Of a DNA stretch of 64,000 nucleotides, positions 3,174 to 13,343 are shown piece after piece. How positions within the stretch are numbered: the stretch's first letter is position 1; each line of letters starts with the position of its first letter. Under the pieces are notes generated by a model. It was not told the origin of the DNA. It did no database searches and saw only the letters and a list, made by a program, of their open reading frames with translations. The DNA is from Leptolyngbyaceae cyanobacterium SM1_4_3 (GTDB lineage: Bacteria > Cyanobacteriota > Cyanobacteriia > Elainellales > Elainellaceae), in assembly GCA_012031415.1 (NCBI GenBank), contig JAAUTN010000001.1:1-64000 (forward strand), given 5' to 3'. The translations under genes and the position numbers were made by a program.

Positions 3174-6100
3174 TCAGCCTGTGTTTCTCATGCCAGCGGC
3201 AATGCCGTTGATGGTAAGCAGTGCGCCGCGCAGCAGTTCGCCCCGGCTGTAGCGAGAGCGAATGACTCCCGAAGCGGCATGGGTCTTGTGCTGGCGCAGG
3301 CGCTTGAGCAGGGAGACTTGCAGAAATCCTAGCGGAACAATAGTGCCGTTACGAAGCTGAACCGATCGCTGAAGTTCAGGGTCGCCATCCAGCAGGCGCT
3401 TATGCCCGGTGATCGTTAGGACTAGATCGCGGGTGAGGTGAAACTCGGCGGCGATTTGCTCAAATACTTGTTGGAAGCGATCGCGATCTTCGGGATGAGT
3501 CAACTCACGCACGTAATGGCTAGCAATCTGTAAATCTACTTTAGAGAGGGTCATCTCACACTTGGAGATCACCATTTTGAAGAAAGGCCACTTGTAGTAG
3601 AAGTAGCGCAACAGCTTCAGGTTTTCCTCTGGTTCTTCTTCCAAAAAGGATTGAATGGCAGTGCCTACGCCATACCAGGAGGGCAGCAGGAAACGGGTTT
3701 GCGTCCAGCTAAACACCCAGGGAATTGCCCGCAGACTAGACAAATCCTTTTTGCCGCCGCGTCGGGCCGGGCGAGAACTAATTTGCAGTTGGCTGATTTC
3801 CTCGATCGGCGTGACCTGATGGAAGAAGTCAATGAAATCGGGCTGTTCATAAATCAAATTGCGGTAGTGAGAACGCGATCGCGCCGCAATTTCTTCCATG
3901 ATTTCGTGCCAGGGCTGAATGTCGTCAAACCCATTTCGCAACACGCTAGCCTGAATCACCGCAGTCACAATCGTCTCCAGGTTATACAGCGCTAACTCTG
4001 GCAGGTTGTACTTAGAAGCCAGCACCTCCCCTTGCTCAGTGATTTTGATCCGTCCGTCAATACTGCGTCCGGGCTGGGCCAAGATCGCTTCATAGGCTGG
4101 GCCACCGCCGCGACCGACCGAGCCACCCCGTCCGTGAAAGATCCGAAGGGAGATGTTGTAGCGCTCAGCTACTTGCTGCAATGCCTGCTGTGCTTTGTGA
4201 ATTTCCCAATTGCTGCTGAGAAAGCCGGAATCTTTGTTGCTGTCAGAATAGCCCAGCATCACTTCTTGCAGCGACGGCAAGTGAGCCAGCGGGAATGAAT
4301 TTCCCTCATCCTTCATCCCTCCGTCCTCATCTTTCTCCCTGTAGCCGCCTGATAAGTAAGAACGATACAGCGGCAGTTCAAACAGATGTTGCATCACACC
4401 AGGGGCCCGCTGCAAATCTTCGACAGTCTCAAACAGCGGCACGACCTGAAGACTGCCCACACCCGCAGAAGGATCATAGAGTCCAGCTTCTTTGGCTAGC
4501 AGCAGCACCTCTAGCAGGTCGCTAACGTTGTGGCTCATGCTGATCACGTAGGTCTGGCAAATTTCTGCACCAAACTCTTGATGCAGCTTTCGCACCATGC
4601 GGAAGGTTTTGATCGTTTCGCAGGTTTTTTCAGAGAAGGGCAGTTCGCTAGGGATTAGAGGACGGCGGGTTTGCAGTTCGGTGGAGAGCCAGAGCGATCG
4701 CTCCTCCTCTGACAACTCGTTATAAGCGCGAGGCAAAATTTGCAGATAGTTAACAATTTCGTCAAGTGCATCTGAATGACAGGAGCTTTCCTGGCGAATG
4801 TCCAGGTAAGCCAGGTTAAAGCCATAAATTTCTACCTGACAGATCAAGTTTTCCAAATCTTTGCAGCTTAGCCCTGTCTCCTCCAGGTTGCGCTGGATGA
4901 GCCGTAGCTCTGCCAAAAAGTCTGTGCCAGCCCGGTAGATTGCAGCAGGGTTGATTTCCGGGATTTCATCCTGGAAACAGTCGCCCTTATAAAGCTGAAG
5001 GCTGCGATCGCGGGTATTCTCCAACCGCTTCTGAATGTAAGCCAACTTCAGCCGATAGGGTTCCTGCCGATAGCGAATCGCCAGCGCATCATACACTTCT
5101 GGCATCTGCACCTGGTCTTGCTCCAGTGACTCCAATAAATCTGGCAAAACATCGCTCCAGTGTAGCGACAGGCTCAGCAGATTCGTCAACTGTTTGACCG
5201 AATGAACATACTTCTCTAGCACCAGATTTCGCTGGTAGCAGGCCGTCTTCCAGGTAATTTGCGGCGTAACAGAAGGATTGCCATCCCGGTCAGAGCCAAC
5301 CCAAGAGCCAAATTTGCAGAAGTTGTAGCTGGGTGGTCGCAGACGCGGAAAGGTGGTGTGCAGCGCATGGCGAAACCGTCGATAAAGCTGCGGAATCGCG
5401 TCAAACAGCACTTCCTGGAAATAGTGCAGCGTATAGTCAACCTCGTCCAGCACGGTTGGCTTGAACTGGTGCAACTCATCGGTGCGCCACCAGAGGCGGA
5501 TTTCTTCGGTTAGCTGTTCGCGTAGCGTCAGCGCTTCCCAGGAAGAAGCGACCCCAAATGCCTGTAGTCCTTCTTCTGCCTGGTCAAGCTGACGCAAAAT
5601 CTTGGCAATGCGTCGCTGTTTGTCGCGAATTGTGTGACGCACAATTTCGGTCGGGTGAGCCGTGAAAACCAGCCGAATGTCTAAGTTGTCGATCAGTCGC
5701 TGAATTTGCTGAGGCGGGACGTTCAAATGGCGCAGTTTGGGAAATAGCCCCTGAAGGCTAGCCGATTCTCGCCGTGAGGAGACTTCTTGCAGGCTCTTCT
5801 CCAACAAATCTGCTTGGGGCCCACCGCTTCTGGTGTCATCGGTTTGCGGCAGCAAAGAAGATTCGGCAGCAAAGCCCGGAATCGGCTCTCTGTTATCGCT
5901 GGCGTTTTCGTAGGCGGCTCGATATTGCTGCTGCTGGCCGCGCTGCTCGTAGTGCTGCTCGACAATGTTGATAAGCTGAAAATAGAGGGCAAAGGCGCGA
6001 GCGGCTCGGATTGCCTCGTTTAGGTCGAGCTTTTCGACCACCTTTAGGGCTTCAGATTCAGCGGACTCTGGGGCTTGCCCTTCAGGAGAACACATATCCC

Positions 6101-6299
6101 GCAGTTGGCGCAGCAAATCTACAAGCTGCTGTCCACATTCTTGCAAGAGGACAGACTCCCACAAATCTTCTACGACTTTGAGGCGATGACGAAGAAATAA
6201 ATCTGAAGTAGAAGTCAGCGCAATCGCCTGCTCTGCTTTAGATTCTGTCGCTGTGCCGGAACTAAAAGCGTCATCGGATGAGTGAAGCGTGGAACTCAT
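3174..6299 (-). CDS. ppc: Phosphoenolpyruvate carboxylase
   Basis: Carboxylates phosphoenolpyruvate with bicarbonate to oxaloacetate, the anaplerotic carbon-fixing step in cyanobacteria. All catalytic motifs are present: TAHPTE with the active-site histidine about 215 residues in, the lysine motif [11 protein letters not shown], the glycine-rich loop [14 protein letters not shown] and the invariant C-terminal RNTG. I prefer the ATG at 6299, which has AGGA six bases upstream, over an in-frame TTG at 6314. At about 1041 residues it is of normal length for the cyanobacterial enzyme. One oddity: between the YLSGGY segment and the LQEVMLGY segment, a heptamer repeat array (4309-4345) is read in frame as a charged Lys/Asp/Glu/Gly loop. 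Confidence 0.97.
4309..4345. repeat. Heptamer repeat array inside ppc, in frame
   Basis: The plus strand reads ...CCCTCATCCTTCATCCCTCCGT..., the same units as the intergenic array at 2276. In ppc it encodes a hydrophilic insert ([15 protein letters not shown]) in a surface loop just ahead of the catalytic [11 protein letters not shown] motif. The flanking protein is intact, so the insert has been tolerated. Confidence 0.8.
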
Positions 6300-6524
6300 A
6301 GTCTGTCCTGGCAAGAATATTCGATAATTCTATGGGTTTTAGCGGGATAAATTCTAGCTCTTTGACTTAATCAAAAAATCTAAGCAATTTCTTGAAATAA
6401 GTTAATCCTAAATTTGGGAGATTCAGTTCGCCAGACTGCTGTAGCAGTGATGAATTAAGACCCAATGGCAGATTTTTTCTAACTGAAGCAATACTGGCTA
6501 CAGCAATATTGACTGATTGCAGAT

Positions 6525-6731: not shown

Positions 6732-7374
6732 TATGATCTAAGCCGAATGTTTTGTCAGAGAAATGTGTCAGAAAAAGAGTTGCAGGCGATCGCTAAGATT
6801 GGGCTAGATGGCAAAGCAGAAACTTCCATCAAGTGTGTCGAGTGCCTCACAGCAGACTGTAGAAAAGATTGGATTCTCAAATAGCTGAAGCTGAAACACC
6901 ATAACTGAGATGCTATGCCCCAGTTTTGGCTGATTTAACCAGACGTTGACTAGACTGATTTAACCAACTTGACCCCAACTGTGCAATTAAACCTGATGCA
7001 ATTAAACCTATGCTAGAACATTGCTAGAAGTTGAAGGATCATAAAGCGTAGCGCAGCCTATACCAAATAGGGTTTACGCGAATACAAAGAAGAACTAAGC
7101 GATCGCCACGCCAGCAAGGGGCTTAAGCCCCTTGTCTTATGAGGGTTCGTTCTATACAAGCTCAAATTGGATTGGTATTAGGTTGATTCTTTAGTGCGAA
7201 ACTGACGGATTGATCGCCGTAAGAGTATGCTATCCCTGAGAGCAAGATTGTTAGAAGATTTGAATCGGGTAAGACGAGTAAGACTAGAGTTCTGATGGCA
7301 CATCCAGTAGACGTATCTCGTTCAAAAGGGCGATCGCCCTGGCTCAATGGTTTCATCAGACGGTTGAGCTTTCA
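6732..7374. other. Intergenic stretch of 640 bases with a palindrome
   Basis: No convincing gene. It is AT-richer than its neighbours and contains a perfect 20-base palindrome at 7115-7134 (see next entry). Its last bases, just before the DUF1574 gene, resemble the end of the dispersed repeat found at 33461 and 45326 (GAGCTTTCAG...CGAACT). Confidence 0.5.
7115..7134. repeat. Perfect palindrome CAAGGGGCTTAAGCCCCTTG (copy 1)
   Basis: The 20-base palindrome is identical to the core of the one at 19296-19317. Both are followed by TCT(T)AT. It is intergenic with no run of T, so a dispersed palindromic repeat is more likely than a terminator. Confidence 0.8.
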
Positions 7375-10300
7375 GTGCGAACTCAATTTCGGCTGCGGGG
7401 TAACAGTCTCTACATTCTCTGTGAAGGATTGCCCCAGGCTGAACGAACAGATGCCCTGATTCGTCTGGTCGAGTCGCTCAAGCACACCGATTTGAACAAG
7501 CTTGTTCCGGCTGATCAGCCACAAATCTATCAGGTTTCGCTAGATGGTCGAGTTTCAGGACAAAATCGCCCTGAATGGACGTTTAACATCTATCTAAACC
7601 AGCTTGACCACCATTTAGACACACTGCTGGCAGAAAAACACCCCCCTGCTCTAGAAGTAAGCCCCCCAGAAGAGCCTCTGGCTCAAGCGCTCCCACCAGA
7701 GGCACCTTCTACCGCCGCTCCGGAGTTTCCAGCCGTGCCGAGCCAGTTTGCTCAGGTGGCTCCGCGCCCCTCTCCAGTTGCGAAATCTAGTCTGGAATCT
7801 TCCAATGCACCAGGTTTGGAAATAGCGAGGCGGGCTTCGACTGTTCTAAAGCCGACCACTCGTGCGGTAAGGCGATCGGCGATCGCCGTCTCAAATCGCA
7901 GTTTGGCCAAGAAAGGGCAGCCCGATGCGATCGCCCGCTACTTAAGCGAAACCCTCAGCGCTCAGGGCGTTGCGGTCAAAGTTCACGTTAAAGCCAGCCC
8001 TTATTCTAGCCGTGCCGCCAGTCCCGTTCCTGCGGCGGTGACAGCGATTCCGGCTCACCACACTCAGCGGCTCTGGATTACCTGTGAAGCAGCCTACAGC
8101 CCCTCTCCTTCCCTGATTGCTGAACCGATCGCCAAACTGCTGCGAGACTTACAGCTAGAAGGATATCGGGATGCGCTGACAAACATTCAGGTGCAGGGTG
8201 AATCTAAGCCAGATTGGGTCTTGCGCGTAGACCTTACCCCACCCGAAGAAATGCTGCGCGAGTGGGCGCGGTGGGGAGACATTGAGGCAATTACCCGGCT
8301 GATTAACCGGGCACTGGCAGAGTTAAACATTCAGGTCGCGACGGCTTCGCTGAAAGAGGCAACACTGCATTTGTCGTTTAGCTATTCCACGAAGTCTCAA
8401 GCGGCAGTGGGTCAAGCCGCTCCCAGCCAGGAAGCAGTCAATTCAACCGTTGCGCCGCTGCTAGCGACCCTGGCTCCCCAGGGCATTCATGCGGCGACGG
8501 TTTACGGTCAGGTGCCTGAGCAGGAGGCTCCCGCCTGGGTGAATTGGCTGAATCTACCTGCGGCTGAGCATTCGGCCCTGGCTGACTCGACGCTTGATTT
8601 GGCGAAGCAAGGCGATCGCCCTGCCCTTGCTTTCTTGCTCAGCCGCTTGCTCAACCCCAACTTAGACCAGCAGTTGGCGACGGGTGGCACTCGGCTTCAG
8701 GTTTTGCTCAAGCAAGATTTGCTGCACATCATGGCTGATGCCCCCGTTTGCCCCCAGCAGCGCCAAGTTGGCCCGGCGATCGCCCGTTTCCTGCGTCCGT
8801 TAGAAATTCCTGGCGTAACCGGAGTGCGCGTCTACGGGCGGCGATCAGGACAAAAGCGACCCCGCTGGAGCTATGGAGCCGACTTTAATCTGCGCGATCG
8901 CCTCGTACCTGAAGCGGCTCCAGATTTCGCTGCAACTGACGCTTATGTGGGCGACCTGATCACCCGCTCCGGCGACCTGATCATCCGTCCAGACCTGACC
9001 CCGACAGACCTTCAAACCGCCTGGATAAAGCTGCGTCAGGGAGCCATTCACAGCATTCAGCAGACACTTCTGCGCTCTCAGTTTTTCATTCCTCAAGAGG
9101 GGGCAGCGCTGCATGATGCCAGCCCAACTCGCCAAATTGGAATTGCGCTAGTTTGGGGAGCCGTAGGTTTGCTGCTCATGGTGCAGGCTGACTGGATGCT
9201 AGGACGAACCCTGCAATCGACTCCTGCGGCAGTGGTGGAAAGGCCACCAGAATTGCTTGAGCCGCCCGCTTCCCCATCTCCTGCTGCCGCTCCTCCTACA
9301 CCTGATTTGCCAACTGTAGCCGTTGACGCGCAGCCAAACACCGCAGAACCTTTACCAGAAGCGGATCAGGCTGCTCAGGATATTTTTGATAACTCCAGTT
9401 TCGTCAGCGCAGCGACCGAAAATGCCGCCCCTGCTTCAGCCGATGCACCCAGCACCCAACCGACTGACTTGCCCAGCAGCGATCCGGCTCCGTTAATCAG
9501 TCCAGACCTGGCGCTGACTTTCGCGGACGGTTCCCCCTACCCCACTTTCAATAGCCAGCAGTTTGACCAAAAGATTGCGCTCTATCATCAGCGTTTGGTC
9601 GAATCAGGCCCGCCCGATGTACTGATTGTGGGCAGTTCCAGGGCACTGCGGGGAATTGACCCCGAAGAATTGCGGCGATCGCTTGCAGAACTCGGCTATT
9701 CTGACGTAGAAGTGTTCAATTTTGGCGTAAATGGCGCAACCGCCCAAGTCGTTAACCTGATGCTTCAGCAAATGCTGACCCCAGATCAATTGCCCAAACT
9801 GCTGCTGTGGGCAGATGGCGCTCGTGCTTTTAATAGCGGCGGCGATGATGTCACCTACGACGGCATCATCGCCTCAGAAGGCTATCGCCAACTGCTAAAC
9901 GGCGCTCTGCCCAACCCCACCTCCAGCAGCTATCGATTTGCTGGCAGCAGAAGCGGCACCGCACCTCAGGCGGGTGGCATTGCCACAACTCTAACCGCCA
10001 ACTATCAGGAATTTGACCGCTGGCTTAGCCAAAGAGTGGGAGCCGTTTCGACGGTCTATCAAGAGCGCGATCGCCTCAAGTCTCTCTTTCAACAGCAAGT
10101 CAGCGCCCTCTTACCAGAAACCGAATCTGCGCCAGCCATTGGAGTGATGACCGAAACCGAACCCCTGGGCGGAGAGCAGCAAGGCAACCCCCAACCTGCC
10201 ACCGATCCTCAAAGCCTGATGGATTTCGACGGTTTCCTGCCGCTCTCAGTTCGGTTCAACCCAGCCACCTACTATCAGGAATATGCCAGAGTTCCTGGTG

Positions 10301-10662
10301 ACTACGACAGCGATTATGAGTCTTTTAGAATTGCAGGCAATCAGGCAGAAGCCCTGCAATCTCTGCTGCAATTCACCCAATCGCGCAAGATTCCTATCGT
10401 CTTTGTGAACTTACCGCTAACTCAGGAATACCTCGACCCGGTGCGGGCAGGCTATGAGCAAGAATTCAAGCAATATATGCTAGAACTGTCCGTGTCCCAG
10501 CCCGGATTCATCTTCAAGGACCTGGGGCAACTCTGGCTCGACCAGCACGATTACTTCTCCGACCCCAGCCACCTCAACCGCTACGGGGCTTACGAAATCT
10601 CTAATCGGCTTGCCCAAGACCCGCTGATTCCCTGGGCAAATCCTGCCCAAGCACTGGAGTAA
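7375..10662 (+). CDS. Large DUF1574-like protein: repeated cytoplasmic module, one TM, SGNH-type C-terminus
   Basis: 1095 residues. The N-terminal 510 residues contain a module that I see four times (about 8-75, 230-295, 335-400, 440-515): a strand (LYILCEG, LWITCEA, LHLSFS, LHIMADA), a helix with an IAxxLRxL pattern, then a V-x-V-x-G strand and a P-x-W motif. One transmembrane helix follows at about 587-607 (IALVWGAVGLLLMVQADWML), then a Pro/Ala-rich linker of about 110 residues. The C-terminal domain (about 730-1090) has SGNH-hydrolase marks: VGSSRALRG with the candidate serine, FGVNGA, and SDPSHLNRYG as the Asp-x2-His block. This matches the DUF1574 proteins of cyanobacteria as I know them. 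The substrate is unknown; an exported acyl-ester function is only an inference. The start is GTG at 7375, and the frame stays open upstream without a better start. Confidence 0.75.
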   Translation: MRTQFRLRGNSLYILCEGLPQAERTDALIRLVESLKHTDLNKLVPADQPQIYQVSLDGRVSGQNRPEWTFNIYLNQLDHHLDTLLAEKHPPALEVSPPEEPLAQALPPEAPSTAAPEFPAVPSQFAQVAPRPSPVAKSSLESSNAPGLEIARRASTVLKPTTRAVRRSAIAVSNRSLAKKGQPDAIARYLSETLSAQGVAVKVHVKASPYSSRAASPVPAAVTAIPAHHTQRLWITCEAAYSPSPSLIAEPIAKLLRDLQLEGYRDALTNIQVQGESKPDWVLRVDLTPPEEMLREWARWGDIEAITRLINRALAELNIQVATASLKEATLHLSFSYSTKSQAAVGQAAPSQEAVNSTVAPLLATLAPQGIHAATVYGQVPEQEAPAWVNWLNLPAAEHSALADSTLDLAKQGDRPALAFLLSRLLNPNLDQQLATGGTRLQVLLKQDLLHIMADAPVCPQQRQVGPAIARFLRPLEIPGVTGVRVYGRRSGQKRPRWSYGADFNLRDRLVPEAAPDFAATDAYVGDLITRSGDLIIRPDLTPTDLQTAWIKLRQGAIHSIQQTLLRSQFFIPQEGAALHDASPTRQIGIALVWGAVGLLLMVQADWMLGRTLQSTPAAVVERPPELLEPPASPSPAAAPPTPDLPTVAVDAQPNTAEPLPEADQAAQDIFDNSSFVSAATENAAPASADAPSTQPTDLPSSDPAPLISPDLALTFADGSPYPTFNSQQFDQKIALYHQRLVESGPPDVLIVGSSRALRGIDPEELRRSLAELGYSDVEVFNFGVNGATAQVVNLMLQQMLTPDQLPKLLLWADGARAFNSGGDDVTYDGIIASEGYRQLLNGALPNPTSSSYRFAGSRSGTAPQAGGIATTLTANYQEFDRWLSQRVGAVSTVYQERDRLKSLFQQQVSALLPETESAPAIGVMTETEPLGGEQQGNPQPATDPQSLMDFDGFLPLSVRFNPATYYQEYARVPGDYDSDYESFRIAGNQAEALQSLLQFTQSRKIPIVFVNLPLTQEYLDPVRAGYEQEFKQYMLELSVSQPGFIFKDLGQLWLDQHDYFSDPSHLNRYGAYEISNRLAQDPLIPWANPAQALE

Positions 10663-10845: not shown

Positions 10846-13343
10846 ATGAGTGAAGTTCAGCAGACTGAACCATCCGGGCAGCAGCCAGCAATTGAGCAGT
10901 GGCGCTGCTCAAATCCCCTCCAGGAGGCAGCGATGCATCAGGAGGCTAGGTTTCGATCGCTGATTGCCAATATTCCGGGGGCTGTCTTTCGCTGTGTGCA
11001 AGAGCCAAACTGGAAGACAGAATTTATCAGCGATGTGATTGAGGAAATTTCTGGCTACCCCGCCTCCGACTTTGTAGATGATCGAGTGCGATCGTTTGCC
11101 AGTATTGAACACGCTGAAGACACTCCCCGCATCCATCAACTGGTGCAGCAAAGCTTACAGCAGCGACAGCCCTATTCGGTTGAATACCGGATTATTCGAG
11201 CAGACGGTGAGATTCGCTGGGTCTATGAGAAGGGGCAGGGAGTCTGGGATGGAGCGGGAAATCTGCTGTGGCTAGACGGCATTATTTTTGACGTTTCTGA
11301 ATTAAAACAAGCAGAAGAAGAACTAATTCTGAAGAATGCGGCGCTAGAGCAGGCAAGGTGGGAAGCCGAAACCGCAAATCGAGCAAAAAGTGATTTTCTC
11401 GCCACCATGAGTCATGAAATCCGCACGCCGATGAATGCTGTGATTGGCATGGCTGAACTGTTGCTGCACACGAATCCAACACCGCAGCAGCAAGACTTTA
11501 TTGCCACCATTCGCAATAGTGGCGAAGCGTTGCTGAGTATTATCAATGACATTCTTGATTTTTCTAAAATTGAGTCTGCCAAGCTCGATTTGGAAGAAAA
11601 TCCATTTAATTTACGAACCTGCATTGAGAGTGCGCTGAATCTGCTGGCTCCTAAAGCGATTGAAAAAGGGCTGGAACTAGCCTACCTGATCGATCCTCTG
11701 GTGCCTGAGGTCGTAGTTAGCGATATGACGCGGATACGCCAAATTTTGGTGAATCTATTGAGCAATGCGGTTAAGTTTACGGAACAAGGAGAGGTAACTG
11801 TCTCGGTAGTGGCTCGTCCTCTGCCGGATAGGGCGATCGCAGCCGATGATTCAACCCTATCGTTTTATGCTCTCCGCTTTGCTGTGAAGGACACAGGCAT
11901 TGGCATTCCTTCGGATCGGTTAGCTCGTCTGTTTAAGCCATTTAGCCAGATTGATTCTTCGATTAGTCGCACCCATGGCGGCACGGGATTGGGGTTGACG
12001 ATTAGCCAGCGCTTGAGCGAGCTAATGGGCGGCAGGATTTGGGTAGACAGTACGTTGGGCAGTGGTTCTACGTTCTATTGTGCAGTTCGGGTGAAGGCGA
12101 TCGCCCTACCCCCACGCAGCAAAAACCCCCCCTGCCTTTATCCCAAAAGCGGCTGCTGATTGTCGAAGATCACGCAACAAATCGGCAAAACTTGACCTTC
12201 CAGGCAAAATCTTGGGGGATGACGGTTTGTGCCGTTGCGTCTGAATCAGAGGTTTTAGCTTTGCTGAATCAGGGAAAACAATTTGATGCAGCGATTTTAG
12301 ATGGTCAACTGCCAGGAACAGACAGTTTGACACTTGCCAGCACAATACACCAGCAGTCTCAAAGCCGGATGCCGCTGCTGTTGATGACGGTAGATAAAAC
12401 GCCAGTAGAGGGATGGCAAACAACCGTTATTGCGGCTGTTCTCAGCAAGCCGATTCAGCAAGCTCAGCTTCATCAAGCTCTAATCAAGGTTCTGGCTCAG
12501 CCGACCGATCAGCCTGAGCAAGCTAATGAAACGTCTGCATTAGCGAGTCAGCGATCGCCCCAACACTCACTTCGAGTTTTGGTGGCAGAGGACAATCTGG
12601 TAAACCAAAAAGTAATTTTGCATCTGCTACAGCGGTTGGGATATCAGGCAGACATTGCCAACAATGGACTTGAAGTATTAGAAGCTCTATCTCAACGTCC
12701 CTACGATCTGGTGCTGATGGATATACAAATGCCCGAAATGGACGGGCTGATGACCACAGAGCAGATTCGTCAGCACGGGGCAAACATAGAGCAGCCTTAC
12801 ATCATCGCGATTACGGCCAATGCAATGCAGGGCGATCGCGAAGACTGCCTAGCAGCGGGTATGAATGATTATTTGAGTAAGCCAATTCGCACTGAGCAGC
12901 TAATTCATGCTTTACAGCAGTGCCATCTCTATATCGAGGCGATCGCCCCAACCTCGTCCAGTCAGCCCGCGTTAACCTCACTAAAGCTGTCAGAAGCAAT
13001 TGATGCAGAAGCAATTGATGACATGGCGTTGCAGGCTTTGTGCGATGAGGCAGACACCGATATCCTGATAGAGCTAATAAACTGCTACCTGAAAGAAACG
13101 CCTAAACTGCTAAAAACGATTCAGGGGACGGTCGTCAAACAAGATGCGATCGCCCTCCGCCATGCTAGCCACACCCTCAAGTCCAGCAGCGCGACTCTGG
13201 GCGCAATTCACCTTCCAAAGCTCTGTGCAGAGCTAGAGAAACTCGCGGGTCAGGGTGAAATAGCGAATTTAGAACCTCAAATCGCTCAGCTTACCGCTGA
13301 ATACAAAAGGGTTGCAGCAGCACTCCAGCTTAAGGTGAATTAA
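10846..13343 (+). CDS. Hybrid sensor kinase PAS-HisKA-HATPase-REC-REC-HPt, interrupted by a frameshift
   Basis: Two overlapping reading frames (10846-12159 and 12039-13343) together encode one phosphorelay kinase of about 832 residues. The first gives a PAS domain (about 33-155), HisKA with MSHEIRTP (about 187-194), and an HATPase with [16 protein letters not shown] and GGTGLGL. The second continues with a receiver ([10 protein letters not shown], acceptor in AILDGQLP), a second receiver ([24 protein letters not shown]) and an HPt domain ([10 protein letters not shown]). The break is at the run of seven C at 12126-12132: one more C would join the frames. The joined order is the usual BarA-like layout. 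No partner regulator is adjacent. A sequencing error, a real mutation, or slippage on CCC-CCC are all possible. Confidence 0.85.

Follow-up and report, generated by a model that had tools for sequence, protein, structure and literature searches.

The window analysed here is a stretch of 64,000 nucleotides (positions 1 to 64,000 of contig JAAUTN010000001.1, assembly GCA_012031415.1) from Leptolyngbyaceae cyanobacterium SM1_4_3. An open reading frame (ORF) at positions 7375–10662 of its forward strand encodes a protein of 1095 amino acids, with GTG at 7375 as the listed start. Along this ORF, four copies of a repeated module are followed by one hydrophobic segment (around residues 588–608), a linker rich in proline and alanine and a carboxy-terminal SGNH-type domain. 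We consider it rather probable that this protein supplies the SGNH half of an MBOAT–SGNH pair for envelope acylation, to which a cytoplasmic array of four modules has been added as a docking or regulatory platform. The chemical half of this placement is made by analogy with described MBOAT–SGNH pairs; new are the array of four modules carried by the SGNH partner and the widely distributed, unnamed domain of which it is composed.

The four-copy repeat is real. The initial annotation had recognised a fourfold repeat with a tryptophan-containing motif in each copy, and all four motifs are present: SGQNRPEWTF (Trp68), GESKPDWVLR (Trp281), EQEAPAWVNW (Trp388) and SGQKRPRWSY (Trp498). Homologues were collected from two overlapping sources, a search of 60 genomes (55 of which gave some match at an E-value of 0.001 or lower, paralogues included, the best 30 matches being kept as loci) and a search of genome contigs (30 loci). 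Each of the four tryptophans is invariant in the resulting alignment of 50 sequences, which includes the window protein and some close relatives, partial, split, paralogous and identical ORFs having been dropped. When family profiles of the modules are aligned to each other with hhalign, all six pairs match, with probabilities of 90.8–98.4% and E-values from 1.2e-6 to 8.9e-15, whereas all 12 combinations in which a module is paired with one of three control segments of the same family (MID, SGNHa or SGNHb) stay below 1% probability. A profile made from 39 modules of other proteins matches the window protein at E = 1.2e-38 (with the set size put at 4500), and neither 2000 shuffled sequences nor the reversed sequence scores at an E-value of 10 or lower. 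These comparisons, of module pairs with controls and of the external profile with shuffled sequences, rule out a chance repeat.

All four modules lie on the forward strand. Module 1 (7333–7596, containing Trp68), the first helix of which is located before the listed GTG, covers positions 11–91 of a 91-position profile that includes the protein's own family, with an E-value of 7.6e-15 that is to be read with the relatives of the window protein in that profile; it is also aligned to modules 2 to 4 by hhalign. Module 2 (7897–8235, Trp281, E 7.4e-24), in which a long loop separates the first strand from the second, is followed by module 3 (8254–8556, Trp388, E 2.2e-26) and module 4 (8593–8883, Trp498), which with E 2.3e-27 marks the other end of the range. 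With the external profile, the single modules reach 8e-14 (module 4), 1.8e-10 (module 3), 0.0017 and 0.18 (the two halves of module 2) and 1.2 (module 1); module 1, not significant alone in this comparison, therefore rests on the family profiles. Four modules are found in 28 of the 30 loci, the exceptions being one that is split by a frame break (L055) and one that is cut (L061). The same holds for eight of ten further loci picked for odd length or MBOAT adjacency; of the other two, L195 is cut and a single clear module is seen in L192 (G058). A tree of 102 modules (from 12 of the 30 loci, plus 54 from other proteins; 90 columns, with bootstrap values that had not settled and a deep order without resolution) places each of the four positions in a clade of its own, with 12 out of 12 rows in each, at bootstrap values of 98–100. 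The array is therefore old and has positions that are not interchangeable.

The module is predicted to be an alpha-beta domain of about 90 residues. Module 4, folded alone with AlphaFold2 on 61 module sequences, gives a model with a predicted local distance difference test (pLDDT) score of 93.2, in which three helices (residues 2–10, 14–25 and 29–35) precede two strands (39–45 and 48–55), a fourth helix (61–75) and two further strands (82–89 and 97–102). The predicted unit thus extends beyond the strand-helix-strand order originally described, starting with helices and continuing as strand-strand-helix-strand-strand. Structure searches do not lead to a fold name: of 753 Foldseek matches none is below E 0.001 (the best is 0.077, with ring-building, BON and other alpha-beta domains in the top rows), and the best VIA Z-score is 6.9 (phage baseplate proteins, KhpB and others), in a range that according to the tool may reflect a chance arrangement and that we do not take as a relation. 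Ring-building, BON and KH-like domains (GerM, PrgK, FliF, DolP, KhpB) are like the module in their general helix-strand-strand-helix-strand layout, but show no significant structural or sequence match to it.

Sequence searches for a known domain under another name, in Pfam, NCBIfam and the sequences of the PDB, yielded nothing reliable. A Pfam scan of 42 modules gave nothing better than E 0.0031, with at most 5 of the 42 on any one family; the weak names TAFH, ARMC9_ARM, GGDEF_2 and DUF2067 are scattered, at E 0.003 or worse, and were discarded. NCBIfam, run on the window protein and the L004 ORF, gave no match on the module. The earlier statement that no published repeat unit was known agrees with these Pfam and NCBIfam scans and with the open-access titles listed, among which no study of the module is recognisable, one under another name being possible. 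A heading in PMC8195603 names an 'EAD principle' for adaptor domains; the passages concerned do not describe the present module.

The module is not confined to this protein. With a 91-residue copy taken from a different gene of the window genome as query, matches appear in 28 of 30 genomes, with 5 to 14 per genome in 26 of them, one and three in two others and none in the remaining two, and a module profile has hits in 78 of 292 genomes sampled across the phylum, every one of them in the same class. A link to mobile elements was also rejected: one module sequence matches none of 50,697 phage records and, out of 72,556 plasmids, two (of Pseudanabaena and Nostoc). An inventory of eight genomes (G000, G004, G010, G040, G053, G057, G151 and G218; 61 rows read, one of which, with 98 residues and E 0.01, was discarded as spurious) contains 60 module proteins. 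Seven are four-module SGNH proteins, that of G057 lying outside the set; in the other 53, the module is near the amino-terminus in 49, and one or more hydrophobic segments are present in 41. Thirty host proteins were compared with Pfam in three scans (E limits 0.1, 0.001 and 0.001), which revealed PGA_cap in five, NB-ARC with immunoglobulin-like repeats in two, and PrsW, Pkinase, TrkA, AAA with its lid, a borderline helix-turn-helix and M50B (below its cut-off) in one each, with no match at the limit used in 15. None of the 30 has a Pfam match above cut-off over the module; a weak Sarcoglycan_1 match (E 0.028, L097) overlaps it.

Several of these host proteins deserve mention in their own right. 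A module protein of around 300 residues, with one hydrophobic segment near residues 160–190, occurs once each in seven of the eight inventory genomes (L155, L159, L163, L170, L176, L184 and L188); its modules form one clade, and L155, the one scanned, has no Pfam name. The module combined with an NB-ARC STAND domain and immunoglobulin-like repeats is seen in a 1497-residue open frame of G001 (L099, G001:C73); the copy in G000 (L094, G000:C399), near a contig end, has an open frame of only 254 residues. Module genes lie within about 3.5 kilobases of each other in three of 20 fully listed genomes (G053, G047 and G058), too few to prove pairing. Three consecutive module genes are present at L168 (G053) and at G047:C2:507974-511469. 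The module gene encoding a PrsW protease adjoins a second module gene at L095 (G000:C256, scanned with Pfam) and L100 (G001:C81), and by place and length the same neighbours are found in G001, G002 and G003; the two products are possibly a protease and its substrate.

The hydrophobic segment following the array is taken as a single membrane helix (9136–9198, forward strand), as the initial annotation had it: hydropathy gives one segment, and the full-length model has a helix at residues 584–614, mostly with pLDDT below 50. Between the modules and this helix, the same model contains a low-confidence predicted helix (residues 543–567; 9001–9075, forward strand). The proline-rich linker that had been noted is also present, rich in both proline and alanine (9217–9519, forward strand), with pLDDT below 50 for residues 603–713. 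The modules are probably cytoplasmic, because in other proteins they share a chain with kinase, AAA, STAND or TrkA domains, which are cytoplasmic, with no hydrophobic segment between (L186, L110, L104 and L157).

The carboxy-terminal domain (residues 716–1089; 9520–10641, forward strand) is an SGNH domain related to DUF1574, as judged from Pfam, alignment and structural matches. The earlier SGNH assignment and its candidate serine, aspartate and histidine hold up well: Ser755 of the block I motif GSSRALRG (9637–9639) and Asp1063 and His1066 of the block V motif Asp-Pro-Ser-His (DxxH, 10561–10572), all on the forward strand, are invariant in 50 of 50 sequences, as are Gly753, Ser754, Gly784 and Gly787. 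Ser755 is the probable nucleophile; we presume this over the equally invariant Ser754 by analogy with GDS and GSS motifs. With a limit of E 0.01, Pfam gives a single match for the window protein, DUF1574 (PF07611), over residues 749–822; the DltD model (PF04914) does not match it at E 0.01. Of 24 homologues, 23 match the DUF1574 model at E 0.01 or lower and two the DltD model (best 6.6e-4). When residues 705–1091 are compared by VIA, on a partly confident model with weak parts, DltD reaches Z 13.2, and many SGNH structures, PatB (11.2) and OatA (10.3) among them, lie at Z 10–13. The window genome also encodes an SGNH paralogue of 399 residues without modules (G000:C252, L002:856-2055), with an amino-terminus that by eye resembles a signal peptide; it passes the DUF1574 cut-off (31.8 versus 29.1 bits) and has weak matches to lipase models.

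A partner for this domain is suggested by the gene neighbourhood. In a set of 31 neighbourhoods (that of the window and of 30 loci), an MBOAT gene is located directly downstream in 19, overlapping the SGNH gene by four bases in 12 of these. Its identity was established with Pfam in four cases (L038, L039, L040 and L050; E 6.6e-26 to 9.3e-32) and by BLAST cluster in the other 15. Five neighbourhoods are cut downstream (L054, L055, L056, L061 and L062). When 60 genomes were read by eye for SGNH matches at E < 1e-30 and MBOAT matches at E < 1e-130, both proteins were found in 45 and neither in eight. Five have the four-module SGNH protein without MBOAT (G012, G017, G029, G045 and G052), one a module-free SGNH match without MBOAT (G030) and one MBOAT alone (G034); of these one-partner genomes, G029, G030 and G034 are less than 85% complete. 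The MBOAT protein ends in YIYFDF in all 18 complete neighbours, in the copy of the window genome and in the neighbours in G047, G055 and G059. This hexapeptide has tyrosine at its third and phenylalanine at its sixth position. In the passages concerned of PMC12148441, the tyrosine of the carboxy-terminal FXYXXF motif of PatA is described as being acetylated and serving as donor to PatB, and an acetylated peptide, FIYANF, as donating to PatB.

From these elements, we infer the acyl transfer with its donor, direction and polymer, as well as how the protein sits in the membrane and what the modules do. The acyl group would pass from the tyrosine of the MBOAT protein to Ser755 of the SGNH domain and from there to a hydroxyl group on a sugar of some envelope or extracellular polymer. 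The amino-terminal four-module array, probably cytoplasmic, would tie the transferase to other components; it is read as a docking or regulatory platform because the same domain ends a kinase, membrane proteases, STAND and AAA ATPases and capsule proteins. Acyl modification of a surface polymer, one of the two functions first proposed, is the likeliest task in view of the MBOAT neighbour, the shuttle-like motif and the DltD-like fold. It would provide a testable function for a protein related to DUF1574, which the relevant passage of a 2022 review (PMC9487903) gives as an SGNH family without known function, and would point to MBOAT–SGNH acylation of cyanobacterial envelope polymers, a subject for which the open-access titles listed include no dedicated paper. 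Naming the module domain, for which no Pfam model was found, would link many unnamed membrane proteins in signalling, proteolysis and capsule formation.

A number of observations weigh against an MBOAT–SGNH acylation protein with a cytoplasmic array. The MBOAT gene of the window genome is on another contig, and the next gene in the window was named, by eye, as encoding a histidine kinase. Among the 26 neighbourhoods that are readable downstream, seven are without MBOAT (the window, L034–L037, L058 and L059), and many of the 19 that have it are from close Nodosilinea relatives, the co-occurrence counts ignoring kinship. Among the 45 genomes that encode both proteins, the genes are adjacent in only three (G047, G055 and G059), so their linkage is lineage-dependent. 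The hexapeptide starts with tyrosine, where FXYXXF has phenylalanine. In the SGNH domain, WADGARAFN occupies the strand expected for block III, without a canonical GxND; Asn820 is invariant. The window protein scores 19.9 bits against a DUF1574 gathering cut-off of 29.1 bits, and is therefore termed related to the family rather than a member. Confidence in the full-length model is low (mean pLDDT 61.6), and the best Foldseek match of this model, DltD at E 1.8e-3, does not reach E 0.001, nor does any other. Three of the seven four-module SGNH proteins in the inventory (G010, G151 and G218) have no segment above the hydropathy threshold, which speaks against a firm membrane helix throughout the family. 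The positive-inside rule lends the topology no support: in the 50 sequences, lysines plus arginines are more numerous on the amino-terminal side of the membrane helix in 14, fewer in 24 and equal in 12, and the net charge is higher on that side in six, which does not favour an inside amino-terminus.

Most SGNH structures matched are esterases or thioesterases, and the domain could accordingly remove acyl groups or hydrolyse lipids, the MBOAT protein having a different SGNH partner, for example the module-free paralogue described above. That this paralogue passes the DUF1574 cut-off and weakly matches lipase models would agree with such a division of labour, as would the separation of the MBOAT gene from the four-module gene in most related genomes. 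We nevertheless think it unlikely, as an adjoining MBOAT gene follows the four-module gene, with the four-base overlap in 12 of 19, and the top structural matches are with DltD. The initial annotation had suggested a sensor, in which a cytoplasmic ligand alters the array and the change, relayed via the membrane helix, switches the SGNH domain. In keeping with this, the array is conserved and sits on one membrane helix, into which a predicted helix runs, and each of its positions has diverged and been retained, but no ligand site or sensor fold was found (the best module match in Foldseek being at E 0.077), and the predicted disorder of residues 603–713, between the membrane helix and the SGNH domain, makes mechanical signalling less likely; we regard a sensor as doubtful. 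It is quite improbable that the main role of the modules is to assemble membrane proteins into oligomers or rings, in the manner of GerM and the ring-building domains of secretion systems: the weak fold likeness to GerM, PrgK, FliF and BON domains is set against the absence of any of the 753 Foldseek matches at E 0.001 and VIA Z-scores of at most 6.9, in the range that chance may produce.

The docking or regulatory platform proposed for the SGNH half of the acylation pair may be extended to the module as a whole, tentatively and with low expectation. The module might be an undescribed cyanobacterial homotypic adaptor through which its carrier proteins meet, with the four-module SGNH acyltransferase as a hub controlling envelope acylation. 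The carriers would then comprise ATPases of the STAND and AAA types, a Ser/Thr kinase, membrane proteases (PrsW and M50-like), TrkA proteins, PGA_cap capsule proteins and small proteins with one module. Adjacent module genes are consistent with such an adaptor: G053 and G047 each have a run of three, and in G000 and, by place and length, in G001–G003 a PrsW-module gene lies next to another module gene.

The gene likely begins upstream of the listed GTG, at an ATG at 7295–7297 (forward strand), judging from alignment with a 98%-identical relative (L005/L034) and from the protein starts of relatives, which have an ATG farther upstream and in which the first helix of module 1 is present. This ATG is in another frame than the rest of the gene. 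At 7337 (no strand assigned), a one-base deletion site is seen: the window has GCGATCG-CCC where the 98%-identical relative has GCGATCGCCCC, and thus one base fewer in the C run after GCGATCG. Because of this missing base, the GTG start hides the first helix of module 1. A second one-base gap, also GCGATCG-CCC, near 12104, accompanies a split of the downstream hybrid histidine kinase gene (10846–13343, named by eye) in two ORFs; in the relatives L034 and L035 it is a single ORF of 832–840 residues. A genome-wide error at GCGATCGCCCC is unsupported, with 840+827 sites in G000 versus 576+597 and 687+669 in two relatives, and the missing bases near 7337 and 12104 are therefore local events, either assembly errors or real deletions. 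Upstream of the SGNH gene, a phosphoenolpyruvate carboxylase gene (named by eye, 3174–6314 in the window) is oriented divergently from it in 27 of the 31 neighbourhoods.

When the protein is compared with known systems, DUF1574 is the one Pfam family that most homologues match (23 of 24), and the paralogue passes its cut-off, but the window protein itself stays below it, with a match limited to residues 749–822. DltD (PF04914), the SGNH partner of DltB, is the best structural match of the carboxy-terminal domain (VIA Z 13.2, root-mean-square deviation 3.8, 244 residues), despite an identity of only 9–14% in the DltD rows and no DltD Pfam match at E 0.01. DltD has a GSS block I. Teichoic acids are not known to occur in cyanobacteria. 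With the MBOAT–SGNH pairs PatA–PatB, AlgI–AlgJ/AlgX, WssH–WssI and DltB–DltX–DltD, the present system shares adjacent MBOAT and SGNH genes in many homologues, an SGNH domain with conserved serine and DxxH beside one membrane helix and an MBOAT protein ending in a tyrosine-bearing hexapeptide. It differs from them in that this hexapeptide is YIYFDF rather than FXYXXF and in that the two genes are apart in the window genome. PatB is described, in the passages concerned of PMC12148441, as periplasmic, possibly with one amino-terminal membrane helix; unlike the proteins of these pairs, the window protein has about 580 residues with repeated modules before its membrane helix.

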